Source of the DNA: Actinocatenispora thailandica
GTDB taxonomy: Bacteria > Actinomycetota > Actinomycetes > Mycobacteriales > Micromonosporaceae
Assembly: GCF_016865425.1 (NCBI RefSeq)
Contig: NZ_AP023355.1
Span: forward strand, 3,780,198-3,844,197
Reading direction: 5' to 3'
DNA: 64,000 nucleotides
The notes below the pieces were generated by a model, which saw only the letters and a program-made list of their open reading frames with translations, made no database searches and was not told the origin of the DNA. Below are positions 16,071-60,814 of this stretch, piece after piece. How positions within the stretch are numbered: position 1 is the stretch's first letter; each line of letters starts with the position of its first letter. Both the position numbers and the translations under genes were made by a program.

Positions 16071-16126
16071 ATACGTCCGTATGTCCTAACAAATGCTTGA
16101 CGGGTCGGCTCCGGCCGGGATACAAC
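16071..16126 (+). promoter_or_regulatory. Promoter and candidate operator of the inositol operon
   Basis: TTGACG (16097-16102) and TACAAC (16121-16126) are separated by 18 nt and read toward the operon. Just upstream is the palindrome ATACG-TC-CGTAT (16071-16082), followed by a near-repeat GTATGTCC. The AT-rich symmetric block is a plausible site for the divergent GntR repressor. Confidence 0.5.
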
Positions 16127-16188
16127 GGTGTCGCTCCCTCACCCGCCGGGCCACGGGATCACCACAGACCGCAGGAAGGCAGCAACGC

Positions 16189-17178
16189 ATGCGCATCGGA
16201 CTCGTCGGGGCGGGCCGCATCGGCGCCTGTCACGCCGGTAGCCTCAGCCGCCTGGCCGGCGTCGACGAGGTGCTGCTCGCCGATCCCGATCCGGCCCGGG
16301 TCGAGCTCGTCGCCGCCGACACCAGCGCTCGCCCGGCCCGGATGGCCGACCTGCTCGACCGCGCCGACGGTGTGGTCGTCGCGACCCCGACCGGTACCCA
16401 CGCGCAGCTGATCCGGCGGATCGCCGATGCCGGCCTACCGATCTTCTGCGAGAAGCCGGTCGCCGCCGACGTGGCCGAGACCCGCGCCGTCCTGGCGCAC
16501 GTCGCCGCGGCCGGGGTCGCGCTGCACGTCGGGTTCCAGCGGCGCTTCGACGCCGGCTTCGCCGCGGTACGCGAGGCGGTGCGCGCCGGTGAGCTGGGCG
16601 TGCTGCACACCGTCCGCGCCTGCACCAGCGACCCGCGACCGCCGAGCCCCGAGTACCTCGCCCACTCCGGTGGCATCTTCCGCGACTGTGCGGTGCACGA
16701 CTTCGACGCGGTGCGCTGGATCACCGGCCAGGAGGTGACGGAGGTCAGCGCGCTCGGCGGGACCACCGGCGCCGCGCACTTCGCCGAGCACGGCGACGTG
16801 GACACCGCGGTCGCGGTGCTGACCCTGTCCGGCGGATGCCTCGCCAGCTGCACCGCCACCCGGTACAACGGGGGCGGCTACGACGTCCGGCTGGAGGCGT
16901 GCGGGCGGGACGGCACGCTGGTGGCCGGGCTGGACGCCCGCGCGCCGCTGCCGTCCGCCGAGCCGGGCTGGCCGGCACCCGGCACGCCGTACCAGGGGTT
17001 CGCGGACCGGTTCGCCGCGGCGTACTCCGCCGAGCTGGCCGCGTTCGTCGAGGTGGTCCGCGGCGAGCGGGACGCACCGTGCACCGGCGCCGACGCGCTC
17101 GCCGCGCTGCTGGTCGCCGAGGCCGCCGAGCGGTCCCGGCGCGAGCACCGACCGGTCCGGGTCGAGGAGGTCGCGTGA
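16189..17178 (+). CDS. iolG: Gfo/Idh/MocA oxidoreductase, inositol 2-dehydrogenase-like
   Basis: A 329-residue NAD(P)-dependent dehydrogenase. The Rossmann motif GLVGAGRIGACHAG is at the extreme N-terminus, PTGTHAQLI and FCEKPVAAD (the EKP motif with the catalytic Lys) follow, and SGGIFRDCAVHDFDAVRW carries the substrate-site Asp/His of inositol dehydrogenases. It should oxidise myo-inositol (or scyllo-inositol) to inosose, the first step of the pathway. The ATG follows AGGAAGG. Its stop TGA overlaps a GTG (GTGA), the start of the repeat reading frame that leads into the next gene. The substrate call rests on cluster context; the family also acts on other sugars. Confidence 0.85.
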   Translation: MRIGLVGAGRIGACHAGSLSRLAGVDEVLLADPDPARVELVAADTSARPARMADLLDRADGVVVATPTGTHAQLIRRIADAGLPIFCEKPVAADVAETRAVLAHVAAAGVALHVGFQRRFDAGFAAVREAVRAGELGVLHTVRACTSDPRPPSPEYLAHSGGIFRDCAVHDFDAVRWITGQEVTEVSALGGTTGAAHFAEHGDVDTAVAVLTLSGGCLASCTATRYNGGGYDVRLEACGRDGTLVAGLDARAPLPSAEPGWPAPGTPYQGFADRFAAAYSAELAAFVEVVRGERDAPCTGADALAALLVAEAAERSRREHRPVRVEEVA

Positions 17179-17323
17179 GCACCGCTGATCCTTCCCGCGG
17201 AGGCGGCGTGAGCACCGCCGACGTGATCCTTCCCGCGGAGGCGGCCATGAGCACCGCCGACGTGATCCTTCCCGCGGAGGCGGCCATGAGCACCGCCGAC
17301 GTGATCCTTCCCGCGGAGGCGGC
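17175..17323 (+). repeat. 39-bp tandem repeat carrying duplicated translation-initiation regions
   Basis: Four copies: 17175-17207 (degenerate, 33 nt), 17208-17246, 17247-17285 (both 39 nt) and 17286-17323 (38 nt). Each starts with GTG or ATG followed by AGCACCGC and ends with the Shine-Dalgarno GGAGGCGGC. The full 39-nt copies are identical apart from the first base. The array fills the whole space between the iolG-like and iolE-like genes. Confidence 0.9.
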
Positions 17324-17327
17324 GTGA
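17175..17327 (+). CDS. Putative 50-residue repeat-encoded small ORF
   Basis: The repeat array is one open frame: a degenerate 11-residue unit, then the 13-residue unit STADVILPAEAA (with initial V or M) three times, ending at TGA. It begins with a GTG that overlaps the iolG-like stop and its TGA overlaps the GTG start of the iolE-like gene, so ribosomes can pass from one gene to the next without leaving. Internal in-frame starts with their own Shine-Dalgarno mean shorter peptides could also be made. I know no homologue; it may act only as a coupling or dosage element rather than as a functional protein. Confidence 0.35.
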   Translation: MSTADPSRGGGVSTADVILPAEAAMSTADVILPAEAAMSTADVILPAEAA

Positions 17328-18187
17328 GTAGCGCCGCACGGATCGCCGCGGCGCCGATCTCCTGGGGTGTCTGCGAGGTGCCGGGCTGGGGCCACCAGCT
17401 CGCTCCGCAGCGGGTACTGGCCGAGATGGCGGCGCTCGGGCTGTCCGCCACCGAGTTCGGACCGGACGGTTTCCTGCCGGCGGCACCGACCGAGCGGGCG
17501 GCGCTGCTCGCCGGGTACGGCATGGTCGCGGTCGGCGGTTTCGTGCCGGTGGCGCTGCACACCGACGGCGCGGTCGACCGGGTCCTGTCACACTTCCCGG
17601 CGTTTCGCGCGACGGCTGCCGACACCCTGGTGCTCGCCGCGGCGAGCGGCACCGACGGGTACGACGACCGTCCCGAGCTGTCCGCGGAGCAGTGGCGCAC
17701 CCTGCTGAGCAACCTGGACGAGATCGCCGCGCGGGCCACCGACGCCGGACTGGTCGCGACCCTGCATCCGCACGTCGGCACCCTGGTGGAGAACGGCGCG
17801 GAGGTCGAGCGGGTGCTCGACGGCAGCCGCGTCGGACTGTGCCTGGACACCGGTCACCTGCTGGTCGGCGGGGTGGACCCGGTGGCGTTGAGCCGATCGG
17901 CGGCCGACCGGATCGGCCACGTGCACCTCAAGGACGTCGACGCGGCGCTCGCCGCCGCGGTGCGCGCCGGCACGGTGCCCTACAGCACCGCGGTACGCGA
18001 CGGGTTGTACCGGCCGCTCGGCGCCGGTGACGTGGACGTGCCGGCGATCGTCGCCGCCCTCGGCGACTACCCCGGCTGGTACGTGCTGGAGCAGGACGTG
18101 GTGCTGTCGGGTGAACCGGCGCCCGGCGCCGGCCCGGCCGTCGACGTCGCCGCCAGCCTGGCCCGGCTGCGGGCGGTGCTGTCGTGA
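17324..18187 (+). CDS. iolE: IolE/IolI-like sugar phosphate isomerase/epimerase (inosose dehydratase candidate)
   Basis: A 287-residue xylose-isomerase-like TIM barrel. The opening IAAAPISWGVCEVPGWGHQL is characteristic of inosose dehydratase-type proteins, and metal-site segments follow: LSATEFGPDGFLP, ATLHPHVGTLVE, GLCLDTGHLLVGG, GHVHLKDVD and YVLEQDVVLSG. In the pathway it would dehydrate 2-keto-myo-inositol to the diketone substrate of IolD. An IolI-type isomerase role is the alternative, as the two share the fold. The GTG start overlaps the preceding TGA; the 3' end overlaps iolC by 4 nt. Confidence 0.8.
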   Translation: MSSAARIAAAPISWGVCEVPGWGHQLAPQRVLAEMAALGLSATEFGPDGFLPAAPTERAALLAGYGMVAVGGFVPVALHTDGAVDRVLSHFPAFRATAADTLVLAAASGTDGYDDRPELSAEQWRTLLSNLDEIAARATDAGLVATLHPHVGTLVENGAEVERVLDGSRVGLCLDTGHLLVGGVDPVALSRSAADRIGHVHLKDVDAALAAAVRAGTVPYSTAVRDGLYRPLGAGDVDVPAIVAALGDYPGWYVLEQDVVLSGEPAPGAGPAVDVAASLARLRAVLS

Positions 18188-35029: not shown

Positions 35030-35061
35030 CGCGGTCATCCTCGCACGGCGTCCGGGCAGCA

Positions 35062-35162
35062 CCGTCGGGTGCCCGCGGCGTACCGCACCGTCGGGTGCCC
35101 GCGGCGTACGACACCCTCGGGCGCCCGCGGTGTACACCCTCGGGTGCCCGCGGTGTACCGCT
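35062..35162. repeat. Four imperfect 23-26-bp direct repeats upstream of hemE
   Basis: Units start at 35062, 35088, 35114 and 35137 and share the core CGGGTGCCCGCGGCGTAC (CGGGCGCCC in the third, GGTGTAC in the last two). They occupy the gap between the divergent hemE and DUF3000 genes, about 35-135 bp upstream of the hemE start. Confidence 0.8.
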
Positions 35163-36889: not shown

Positions 36890-38452
36890 TCACTTCCCGC
36901 ACACCGAGAACTTGTCGCACGGGATCGAGATCGGAATCGCGAGGCCGATCCCCTCCGCGTCCCGCGCCTTCTCGGTGGCGATGCCGACGACCTGCCCCTT
37001 CGCGTTCAGCACCGGGCCACCGGAGTTGCCGGGGTTGATCGCCGCGTCGAACTGGATGAACTTCTCGTCGCTGCCCGGCACCTCGCGCTCCGGCGAGCTG
37101 ATCACGCCGGCGGTGACCGAGTCGCCGAGCCCCAGCGGGGAGCCCACCACCACGACCGGTTCACCGGAACGCACCGGCTTGTCGACCACGCCCAGCGCGC
37201 CGAAGCTCTCGTCGCACTGCAGCAGCGCGATGTCCCGACCCGAGTCGTACTTGACGACCTTCGCCGGGTACGAACCGCCGGAGCGCTCCAGCTTCACCGA
37301 CTTGCTGCCGGAGGCGAGCAGGTGCTCCACGACGTGGTGGTTGGTCAGCAGGTAGGTACCGCCGCCCGGGGCCGAGCCGACCACGAAGGCGGTACCGGAG
37401 TACTCCCCGGCGTCCACCTGGAACACGCTGGGCAGCACCTTCGCCGCGACCCCGGCGGAGTCCAGCGACCGCTTCGCCCGCTGTTGCAGGCCGCCGACGT
37501 CGTTCTCCAGCTTGGCCAGCCGGCGATCGCTCTTCGCCCGGGCGGCGGCCGCCGCCTTCTTCTGATCGCCGAGCGCCGAGTTGGTCTCCACCAGCAGCAC
37601 CGTCTGCACGACGGTGACCACCACCAGCACGACCGCGAGCACCGCGACCACGGTGCCGAGTCGGCCGCGCTGCGGGGCCGGCGGCTGCCAACCGGGGCCG
37701 GCCAGCATCGGCTGGCCGGGCATCCCGGACAGCGGCGGCTGCGCACCCGGCTGCGGGCCGGGCTGCCCGACCGGCGGCTGCGCGGACCAGGCGGAGGTGC
37801 CGTCCGACCAGCGCCCACCGCCGTCCGGCTGTTCGGCGCCGGGCACCGGGGGCAGGCCCGACTCCGGCGCCGGCGGGTACTGGCCGGGCGCCGGCGGGTA
37901 CGGCGCGTCGCCAGCGGTCGGCGGGTACGGCGGGCCGGTGGGAGCCGGCGGGTACGGACCGGCGGACTGCGACGTGCCGGCCGCCTCCGGTGCGGCATCC
38001 CCGGCGACCGGCGGTTCGGCGAACTGCCCGGCATCGGGCTGCTGGGGAACGACCGAGCCAGTGCCATCCGAGCCGGACGCGGCGAGGTACGGGCCGGCGT
38101 CCTGGGCCGGCGCAGCCGAATACGGGCCGGCGTCCTGGGTCGGCGCACCGGAGTTCGGCTGCGAGTCCGCGGCGGGCACGCCCGGGTACGGCCCGGCGTG
38201 CTGGGCGGGTGCACCGGGGTACGGCGTGCCGCCGGCGACCGGCGTCGAGGGGAGCGGTGCGGTGTCCGGGCTCGTCGCCGCGGACGGGATCGACGGGTCG
38301 GGCGCTCCCGGGTCCGGACCGGCCGGCGAGGTCGACGCCACCGACGCCGGCCGAGCCGGCGGGCCGGCTGCGGCCGAGGTGGGGGCTGGTGCTTCCGGCT
38401 GGCCGCCCTGAGCGGGCTCGGGCCGGCCGTCCGGCGGGTACGGGTCGGTCAT
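36890..38452 (-). CDS. HtrA-like trypsin-fold serine protease with proline-rich cytoplasmic tail
   Basis: A 520-residue membrane-anchored protease. Residues 1-240 are Pro/Gly/Ala-rich with repeated QDAGPY-type blocks; one transmembrane helix (about 248-272, VVAVLAVVLVVVTVVQTVLLV) is followed by a short coiled coil and the protease domain. The triad is readable: His in LLTNHHVVEHLL, Asp in SGRDIALLQCD and Ser in AINPGNSGGPVLNAKG. No PDZ domain follows, the protein ending in IPCDKFSVCGK. Probably extracytoplasmic quality control or signalling proteolysis. GGAGG lies 11 nt before the ATG. Confidence 0.8.
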   Translation of the reverse strand: MTDPYPPDGRPEPAQGGQPEAPAPTSAAAGPPARPASVASTSPAGPDPGAPDPSIPSAATSPDTAPLPSTPVAGGTPYPGAPAQHAGPYPGVPAADSQPNSGAPTQDAGPYSAAPAQDAGPYLAASGSDGTGSVVPQQPDAGQFAEPPVAGDAAPEAAGTSQSAGPYPPAPTGPPYPPTAGDAPYPPAPGQYPPAPESGLPPVPGAEQPDGGGRWSDGTSAWSAQPPVGQPGPQPGAQPPLSGMPGQPMLAGPGWQPPAPQRGRLGTVVAVLAVVLVVVTVVQTVLLVETNSALGDQKKAAAAARAKSDRRLAKLENDVGGLQQRAKRSLDSAGVAAKVLPSVFQVDAGEYSGTAFVVGSAPGGGTYLLTNHHVVEHLLASGSKSVKLERSGGSYPAKVVKYDSGRDIALLQCDESFGALGVVDKPVRSGEPVVVVGSPLGLGDSVTAGVISSPEREVPGSDEKFIQFDAAINPGNSGGPVLNAKGQVVGIATEKARDAEGIGLAIPISIPCDKFSVCGK

Positions 38453-40075: not shown

Positions 40076-40112
40076 CGCCCGGCGCTGCCGCAGGTCCGCG
40101 TGCCGGCCGGGA

Positions 40113-40224
40113 CAGCGCCGCGGAGCCAGCGCCGCCGGGGCAGCGCCGCGGAGCCAGCGCCGCCGGGGCAGCGCCGCCGGGGCAGCGCGGCGGGGACAGC
40201 GCCGCGGGGACAGCGCCGCCGGGA
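40113..40224. repeat. Eight tandem copies of a 14-bp GC-rich unit
   Basis: The unit is CAGCGCCGCCGGGG with variants CAGCGCCGCGGAGC and CAGCGCGGCGGGGA; copies follow each other exactly every 14 nt. It lies in the 357-nt gap between the RNase D-like gene and fadA. I find no gene in the rest of that gap. Confidence 0.85.
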
Positions 40225-40381
40225 CGCGTCGCTGGCCGGGCACCCCGCCGGCCCGGTGCGCCGGCACCGGCCGCTCCCGATCACACCTCGCGCCGGGCGG
40301 CGCCGTCGCGGACACCTGCACCGGCGCCACGGGTACCACTGTGACCGGATGCACAGTTGGGGTGTCGTGCAAATCGCTCGT

Positions 40382-59122: not shown

Positions 59123-60814
59123 TCACTGGGTGGCGTCGCGAACACTGTTCGCGACCTTCTGCACGTCCCCCTTCGCGGCGGCCGGCGCGGTGAACCGCAG
59201 TACCACCTGGCGGTCCATCGGGCCGCCCGGCTTGCTGTGCCAGTACCGCACGAGGACCAGGCCGTAGCCGACGCGGTGGCTGGTCTCGGGCGGGGTGAAG
59301 TTCTCCGCCTGGGCCCACGAGGAGTTGCCGCCGTCCCGCTCCCAGCGCAGGCCGAACGCCTCCTCCTGCTCGCGCATGTGGATCTTCTTGGCCGCGTCGC
59401 ACGGTTCACCGCAGGTACGCACGATCACGTCACCGCTGGCCTTGCTCTTCGAACCGACGCAGTGGTAGTTGACGTAGCTGGTCGACTGGTCCTTCTTGGT
59501 GCAGGTCCAGTCGGCCGGCGCGACGAAGTCGAACCCCAACCCGGCCAGCCCGGACATCGGCTTGGTCTTGTCGCCGGAGCCGAACTTGGCGAACGAGGAC
59601 GGCCAGGACGCGTCCTTCGGCGGTTCCTTGCCCGGGTGCTGGGGCGTGCTCGGCGCCGACTTCTGCGTCCGCGGGGTCGGCTGGCCCTGCGGCGCCGTGC
59701 TCTTGCCGCCGGTCGGCTTGGCGCTCGCCGACTGCTTGGTCTGCGGGGTACCGCTGCCGCGGGTGAAGTAGACGGCGGCGCCGATGCCGCCGCCGAGCAC
59801 CACGACGATCAGGATCACCAACCCGACGAGCAACCCGGTGCGGCGCGGCTTCTCCTCCGGCTCGGCGGACAGCGGCGGGTACTGCTGCGGCGGTTGCGCA
59901 CCGAACTGGTCCTGCTGCTGCGGTTGCTGCTGGGCCGCGAACGGCGTGGCCTGCTGCGCGAACGGCTCCGGCTGCTGGGCCGCGAACGGCTCCGGCTGCT
60001 GGCCGGCGAACCCGGACTGCTGCTGGCCCTGCGGGGCGAACGGGTCGGGCGCCGGGGCGGCCTGCTGGCCGCCGGCGTTGAACGGGTCGACCGGTTCGAA
60101 CGGGTTCGGCGCGCTCGCCGTGCCGAACCCGGCCGGCTCGTCGGCACCGAACTGGCCGGCCCCGGTGCCGAGCTGATCGGCCGGACCGGGCGGCTGCTGG
60201 GCGCCCTGCGGCGGCACGGAACCGTTGGCGTCCGGCCGGATCATCGCGGTCGCCGGCTCCTCGTCCGCACCGGTCGAGGGCGGTAACCCGGAGCCTATCG
60301 GCGCGCCGGAGGCGGGCATCCCGGAGACCGGCGTCGGCTGTCCCGGTACCGGTGGCGTCGGCCCGGGCGGCCCCGACATCGGCTGACCCGGCACGGACTG
60401 ACCCGACACCGGCTGACCAGAGACCGGCTGAGCAGAAACCGGCCGACCCGGCATCGGCTGACCAGAGACCGGCTGGCCGGGCTGGTGCTGGGCGGCGGGT
60501 GCGGAGACCGGCTGGCACGGCGCGCCCATCGCGGCGAACACGTTCGCGGCGCTGGCGCCGCCGTCGTCGGGGAACGCCACCCACGGCTGCTGGCCCACGA
60601 GGTCGGCCGCCACCGGGCCGCCCACCGGCGCCGACTGGCGCACCTGTTCGACCGTGGCGCTGAACTGCCAACGGCTCTGCGGGTCGACCGCCGCCTGGCC
60701 TTCGAGCACGGCCATGGTGACCTGGTTGCCCTGCTGGTCGACTCCGCGCCAGACCCGCCCGGCCGGGCCGGCGCCGAGCAGGTCCCGCAACGCGTACGGG
60801 CCGATTGTCTGCAT
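59123..60814 (-). CDS. Single-pass membrane protein with degenerate protein-kinase N-lobe and Pro/Gln-rich linker
   Basis: A 563-residue protein. Residues 1-95 resemble the N-lobe of a Hanks-type kinase: IGPYALRDLLGAGPAGRVWRGVDQQGN matches the Gly-rich loop, but the VAIK lysine is replaced (VTMAVLEG) and no catalytic loop or DFG follows, so it cannot be an active kinase. A 230-residue Pro/Gln/Ser-rich linker with pentapeptide repeats follows, then one transmembrane helix (about 355-378, TGLLVGLVILIVVVLGGGIGAAVYF), a Lys/Ser/Pro stalk and an external domain of about 150 residues with four cysteines (DWTCTK, NYHCVG, RTCGEPC), probably two disulfides. Role unknown; it may bind a kinase or lipid inside and a ligand outside. 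Confidence 0.72.
   Translation of the reverse strand: MQTIGPYALRDLLGAGPAGRVWRGVDQQGNQVTMAVLEGQAAVDPQSRWQFSATVEQVRQSAPVGGPVAADLVGQQPWVAFPDDGGASAANVFAAMGAPCQPVSAPAAQHQPGQPVSGQPMPGRPVSAQPVSGQPVSGQSVPGQPMSGPPGPTPPVPGQPTPVSGMPASGAPIGSGLPPSTGADEEPATAMIRPDANGSVPPQGAQQPPGPADQLGTGAGQFGADEPAGFGTASAPNPFEPVDPFNAGGQQAAPAPDPFAPQGQQQSGFAGQQPEPFAAQQPEPFAQQATPFAAQQQPQQQDQFGAQPPQQYPPLSAEPEEKPRRTGLLVGLVILIVVVLGGGIGAAVYFTRGSGTPQTKQSASAKPTGGKSTAPQGQPTPRTQKSAPSTPQHPGKEPPKDASWPSSFAKFGSGDKTKPMSGLAGLGFDFVAPADWTCTKKDQSTSYVNYHCVGSKSKASGDVIVRTCGEPCDAAKKIHMREQEEAFGLRWERDGGNSSWAQAENFTPPETSHRVGYGLVLVRYWHSKPGGPMDRQVVLRFTAPAAAKGDVQKVANSVRDATQ
60370..60486. repeat. Degenerate 15-bp coding repeats (PVSGQ-type pentapeptides)
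   Basis: On the coding (minus) strand the units encode QPVSG, RPVSA, QSVPG and similar, about seven times. They form part of the linker of the kinase-lobe protein. Confidence 0.7.

Follow-up and report, generated by a model that had tools for sequence, protein, structure and literature searches.

A tandem array of start modules in an inositol operon of Actinocatenispora thailandica as a likely amplified insertion of a short, translation-compatible mobile element

In Actinocatenispora thailandica the junction between a dehydrogenase gene and an IolE-like gene of an inositol operon is filled by a short tandem array, each unit of which carries a start codon and a GGAGG motif. This raises the question where such an array comes from and whether the number of its units matters for the genes that it separates. 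We analyzed the locus within a window, i.e., the whole stretch of 64,000 nucleotides under study. The earlier note on this DNA had described tandem start modules that overlap both neighboring genes by GTGA, form one frame of 50 codons and have the geometry of stop/start coupling, and the sequence bears out this description. Read directly, positions 17175-17323 are filled by four units of 33, 39, 39, and 38 bp with a GTGA stop/start overlap at either end: the GTG at 17175 overlaps the upstream TGA (17176-17178), and the last unit enters the GTGA at 17324-17327, which both ends the array frame and starts the IolE-like gene, so that the frame 17175-17327 comprises 50 codons plus stop. GGAGG lies 4-5 nt upstream of every next start codon in the array. 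Tandem Repeats Finder reports a period of 39, 3.6 copies, 98% matches and a score of 262, the top score among its 30 rows for the window. The features are as follows.

16093-17178, plus strand: upstream gene, Gfo/Idh/MocA-family dehydrogenase, its TGA overlapping the first GTG (ORF list; Pfam GFO_IDH_MocA)
17175-17207, plus strand: unit 1, 33 bp, with in-frame readthrough into unit 2 (sequence; partial model match, positions 11-32)
17208-17246, plus strand: unit 2, 39 bp, with GTG start, 12 codons, hairpin and GGAGG (sequence; fold; model match of 44.8 bits, this unit being among those used to build the model)
17215-17244, plus strand: hairpin of unit 2, CCGCC-GA-CGTG / CGCG-GA-GGCGG, with GGAGG in its 3' arm (fold; family-wide compensatory changes)
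17247-17285, plus strand: unit 3, 39 bp, ATG start (sequence; model match)
17286-17323, plus strand: unit 4, 38 bp, terminating on the GTGA of the downstream gene (sequence; model match)
17175-17327, plus strand: fused 50-codon leader frame made from the four units (sequence; in-frame translation in the ORF list)
17324-18187, plus strand: downstream IolE-like gene (xylose-isomerase-like TIM barrel), its GTG start inside the GTGA overlap (ORF list; Pfam AP_endonuc_2)

According to the ORF list and Pfam, the IolE-like gene is followed by PfkB, Cgl0159-like, KduI/IolB, TPP-enzyme, and aldehyde dehydrogenase genes, and a GntR/UTRA regulator gene lies upstream on the opposite strand. Simple consensus scans for promoters and terminators in 17000-17500 gave none, including no sigma-70-like site, and Rfam gave no family match up to E=1 in 16900-17600.

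The array is not a chance repeat because its unit recurs elsewhere in the 7.43-Mb single-contig genome at E-values down to 5e-10. A search with a 32-position sequence model, built from 12 units of which five come from the same genome, detected 10 units in four arrays at E <1e-4 in this genome, and a DNA search found the unit at further gene junctions; matches weaker than E ~0.005, only some of which were inspected, were treated as noise. Besides the inositol array, the arrays lie between PAPS-reductase-like and CbiX-like genes (L002), between substrate-binding-protein and permease genes (L003) and ahead of an OtsB-like gene (L004), all named by reading rather than by family search. The element is built from a start codon and some 12 codons with an ADV-I/L-x-PAEA core; its imperfect hairpin carries GGAGG in the 3' arm, and it ends in RTGA. 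The fused 39-bp unit put forward in the earlier note holds for the window, but units of 38 bp are the most frequent in the family; each is closed as an ORF of 12 codons, and its TGA overlaps the RTGA that follows. The 39-bp form contains one extra C that joins the units into a single frame, and unit 1 can be read as a 38-bp unit carrying a putative 5-bp deletion. The extra C in each 39-bp unit together with this deletion would have merged the mini-ORFs, and the window array is thus a derived case, with one leader ORF instead of four short ones. Units of the window outscore those of the congeners on the model, which might point to a recent lateral acquisition, but the model was partly built from window units, and the difference was given no weight.

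All four genomes of the genus, the own genome included, contain matches, which in G002 amount to a single match at E up to 1e-4, located inside a frame. Within the sampled family, matches were found in seven of 150 genomes, four of them from the window's genus; judged by reading, the other three comprise one clear module (L126), one partial match in an upstream region (L127) and one coding match (L128), and the latter two were set aside. The clear module, at L126:1003-1044, is a single start module at an apparent argC/argJ junction in another genus of the same family, in a genome that is 77% complete, and this copy is possibly lateral or a contamination. In the class sample two of 394 genomes gave matches, the own genome and G515, the copy of which (L129) is a clear module. 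Family f3 was found to include Gandjariella thermophila and Pseudonocardia sp. KRD291 on the basis of identical match coordinates. Of its 297 sampled genomes 66 gave matches, spread over 16 of 46 genera; 22 of these genomes have a single match and 44 have at least two, although these were not individually inspected and single uninspected matches overcount, since some at E up to 1e-4 are native coding sequence (L128, L232, L233). The model finds 29 to 36 matches at E up to 0.01 in each of G541 to G544. Only 18 to 48 candidates per genome were scored in the large samples, so copy numbers there are lower bounds. In family f2 the only matches (2/301; L232 and L233) are near-identical native coding matches and were rejected, as was a match from Planctomycetota (L023), a coding match outside a start-module setting. 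No description of this 38/39-bp unit family was found in open PMC papers. The units are scattered over unrelated genes, which speaks against the array as a special feature of the inositol operon, and an assembly artefact, which the earlier note had named as a refuting outcome, is unlikely, given that the family also occurs at orthologous sites in other assemblies of the genus.

The history of such sites can be followed among the four congeners (G000, the own genome, and G001 to G003). Eleven junctions, picked for a unit in at least one genome, were aligned at their orthologous places; locus names are by reading, and not every genome yielded a usable match at every locus.

Inositol junction: G000 four units; G001 one degenerate unit; G002 and G003 none
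dppC: G001 three units (116 bp); G003 and G000 none, with flank identities of 97% and 92%; G002 an unrelated insert
dppF: G001 and G003 three units each; G000 and G002 none
otsB: G001 four units; G003 two; G000 one; G002 no usable match
SBP/permease: G000 two units; G001 three; G003 degenerate; G002 no usable match
x80: G001 one unit; G003 none
x59: G001 two units; G003 four; G000 without a clear count
x58, x81, x85, and cysH junction: intact units in one genome; decayed or none in others

All 11 junctions differ between at least two congeners. Site occupancy hence depends on the species, and the readily changing copy number that had been anticipated is supported between species. The GTGA persists at the empty inositol junction of G002 and G003, so the array is not needed for the overlap. 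RTGA, a possible target-site duplication, is present at both ends of the inserts and is indistinguishable from the element's own end; insertion and loss are not always separable because the arrays have diverged. At L101 and L107 the own genome holds decayed, barely recognizable copies where congeners hold intact units. G002 carries other short inserts at L114 (dppC junction, ~266-284) and at L113 (x58 junction), one of which contains TGAGCGAGCGAATCATGAG, present in one of the 231 loci examined; these inserts are possibly a second family of junction repeats.

To describe the sites more generally, a census was made of 52 regions, namely 16 arrays from G000 to G003 that contain a unit at E ≤1e-3 and 36 regions from G543 and G544 covering matches at E up to 0.01. 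L191 contains no recognizable unit, which leaves 51 arrays. Among these, 31 end on the RTGA start of a downstream frame and 20 run through, several of them within enzyme genes; the split places L076 by reading (the script, misled by a spurious match, gave 30/21) and counts L187, truncated by a contig end, as run-through. In 29 of the 31 arrays the frame that begins at the RTGA extends over 100 codons or more, compared with 49% of 435 control RTGA sites in the same GC-rich stretches. The two exceptions are L080 with 99 codons and L185 with 44, which is truncated by a contig end. Where an upstream RTGA was recognized, the mini-ORF is in frame with it in 26 of 27 arrays, and in 22 of 27 the open frame closed by this upstream RTGA is 100 codons or longer, a figure that stands without a control. 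The frame that terminates at the first RTGA is short in some cases (56 codons at L059, 61 at L184), and a restart from a long upstream gene is therefore not universal. Unit spacing differs between both kinds of sites: 38 bp occurs 22 times and 39 bp six times in RTGA-ending arrays, while it is 39 bp in 14 of 14 cases in run-through arrays (spacings from L062 and L068, which hold three and four units where the script saw one each, were left out). RTGA-separated units thus keep 38 bp, as closed mini-ORFs, and fused units keep 39 bp. At L178:600-720 three fused 39-bp units form, by reading, the N-terminal extension of an FMN-oxidoreductase-like protein, and annotated starts at sites of this type may include element copies.

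Taken together, the array is likely a tandemly amplified insertion of a mobile element of about 38 bp, which is compatible with translation, largely selfish, and expands in tandem. We envisage that the element enters the RTGA overlap of two genes, whereby one coupled junction would become two. Ribosomes ending the upstream gene would restart on the RTG of the element, translation of the mini-ORF would open the hairpin and free the Shine-Dalgarno sequence (GGAGG), and ribosomes would then restart once more on the target gene. The downstream gene is thereby probably still translatable, thanks to the start, the mini-gene and the ribosome site that the element brings along. With coupled restarts at the element and at the target, an insertion at RTGA would cost little and be tolerated, the element could persist as largely selfish DNA, and tandem duplication could subsequently expand and contract the array.

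The alternative favored by the earlier note, in which copy number has been selected to set the level of re-initiation and the proportions of the inositol enzymes, or acts as a phase-variation switch, is unlikely in our estimation. It draws on the start codon and GGAGG present in each unit of the window and on the unit differences at all 11 junctions, which had however been chosen for a unit in at least one genome. Against it, the occupied junctions belong to unrelated genes, two of the four congeners retain the GTGA without any array, and the units of the window are fused in one frame, which makes internal restarts unnecessary. Copy-number tuning of enzyme ratios is not needed for explaining the array.

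Insertions inside genes bear on a further reading, namely that the element is maintained because its peptide (STADVILPAEAA) has a function as a short protein. From 21 loci, 10 frames were chosen by reading for a Pfam scan, and eight matched: an aminotransferase, a methyltransferase, a HAD hydrolase, a family-4 glycosyltransferase, a FAS1-like dehydratase/ChsH2-type protein, a decarboxylase, a PolX-type polymerase, and a methylmalonyl-CoA mutase, with the element located within the matched domain, between domains or beside it. Alignment shows a 36-bp in-frame insert in the aminotransferase gene of G003 and another in the mutase gene of G002, each lacking in the three other congeners. In the methyltransferase gene, G003 has two units and G001 decayed copies, and the element is lacking from G000 and G002; the alignment at the PolX site is not clean. 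The core codons do give a recognizable ADV(I/L)xPAEA motif, but the element is antisense in six of the eight hosts and sense in two, in one of these in another frame, so that the peptide is absent from seven of the eight; peptide-neutral positions (CCC GCG GAG) are conserved as well. Since copies in genes can be antisense or out of frame, a functional repeat peptide, the alternative already raised in the earlier note, is very unlikely. That the array arose by purely local tandem duplication of the IolE-like gene's own start region, as units beginning with codons like those of the downstream gene in several arrays (L002, L003) might suggest, is scarcely credible and is ruled out as its origin by dispersed copies, the 29-bp core being repeated at unrelated genes, in another family, and inside coding genes. 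Within the favored reading of a mobile element, local duplication is likely the way in which copies multiply after insertion.

The hairpin gives a further view of the element. Four single units fold to a stem of the type CCGCC-GA-CGUG / CGCG-GA-GGCGG with z-scores of -0.8 to -3.0. For an analysis of covariation we used 68 of 71 distinct units, three being dropped as misaligned or chance matches. Across these 68 units, 90.2% of the cells pair, and both sides have changed in 13 cells in five pairs, compared with 1.5 in shuffles, of which none in 500 reached 13, in a control that takes no account of relatedness. Slid hairpin arms gave 3 to 9 both-side-changed cells, with 29 to 63% of cells paired; the value of 9 belongs to a +3 slide of the 3' arm. 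Pair 13-22 is broken in 24 of 68 units, and the compensatory changes stem from 10 loci of both site kinds, some of which may have a common origin. The hairpin is also present in run-through copies and therefore looks like a property of the element and not only of start function. One pair is mostly T-G (47/68), and the inner loop is GA/GA in 62 of 71 units; both features fit only the sense strand, and the hairpin would accordingly form in RNA or DNA of this strand in single-stranded form.

Mobile hairpins of this kind call to mind REP repeats, which are linked to RAYT. REPs are palindromic repeats of 20-40 bp (PMC3733652), and an REP-type repeat moved by a RAYT/Y1 (IS200-like) transposase would share size and imperfect hairpin with the unit described here. 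A match to PF01797 (Y1_Tnp) was found in two of 12 element-bearing genomes, one match each in G001 and G003, but equally in two of 12 genomes without element matches, and the 10 element-bearing genomes without one include G541 to G544 with their 29 to 36 hits each. The unit is not tied to the Y1 transposase and sits in translated positions, and we give hardly any credence to this explanation. Neither a transposase for the element nor a master copy or fresh transposition was seen; plasmids and phages gave no element match, and viral contigs no exact pattern match. A bolder reading, which we regard as possible but doubtful, would have a single 38-bp element use translation in two ways, as a start module at junctions and as a frame-neutral insert on either strand of genes, move via a single-stranded RNA or DNA intermediate recognized by its one-strand hairpin without a Y1 transposase, and cross bacterial families, in which case it would represent a new class of ultra-small, translation-compatible mobile DNA.

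Several other repeats resemble the element in part. A palindromic amphipathic repeat coding sequence, horizontally distributed in Mollicutes and other microbes, is palindromic and lies in coding sequence, but it is described as a protein-coding repeat and not as a start module (PMC2996958). RPEs are rickettsial palindromic elements of ~150 bp, found in frame inside unrelated metabolic genes (PMC10969869). The unit described here is likewise palindromic and inserts in frame in genes whose orthologues lack it (G003 aminotransferase, G002 mutase), but it measures 36-39 bp, is actinobacterial, and has the RTGA overlap as its commonest census site. The element also resembles the mycobacterial MIRUs, which seem to be mobile and to insert at start codons, with an internal ORF coupled to the target gene at -4 spacing, probably with minimal impact on expression (PMC12548453), vary in tandem copy number (PMC4213456; PMC3635867), and in senX3-regX3 measure 53 and 77 bp and are reported to drive expression (PMC4213456). 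Both are dispersed short repeats at start codons with a -4 overlap, a likeness of geometry only, here at the 31 of 51 census arrays ending on RTGA, and both vary in tandem copy number at orthologous sites, here between species only. Our unit differs in its length of 38/39 bp, in its main hosts, Pseudonocardia's family and the genus of the window, and in that it also inserts inside coding genes on either strand; moreover, senX3-regX3 MIRUs are reported to drive expression, whereas the region 17000-17500 gave no sigma-70-like site. By geometry, the unit would work on the same principle as MIRUs; membership is not claimed, as length and main hosts differ.

To our knowledge, how MIRUs spread has stayed open, and the element described here is a shorter one with MIRU habit outside mycobacteria. 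With 29 to 36 matches in each of four genomes and clean empty sites, it opens insertion, copy-number turnover, and the influence on translation to direct tests. Gene calling and strain typing are affected as well, since element copies account for some of the leader ORFs, starts, and N-termini in these genomes. The window holds further repeats: about four copies of a 26-bp repeat with palindromic stretches (GCACCCTCGGGTGCCCGCGGCGTACC) at 35059-35161, and tandem arrays reported by Tandem Repeats Finder at 40106-40232, 38086-38225, and 60372-60482, with periods of 14, 33, and 15 bp, respectively.
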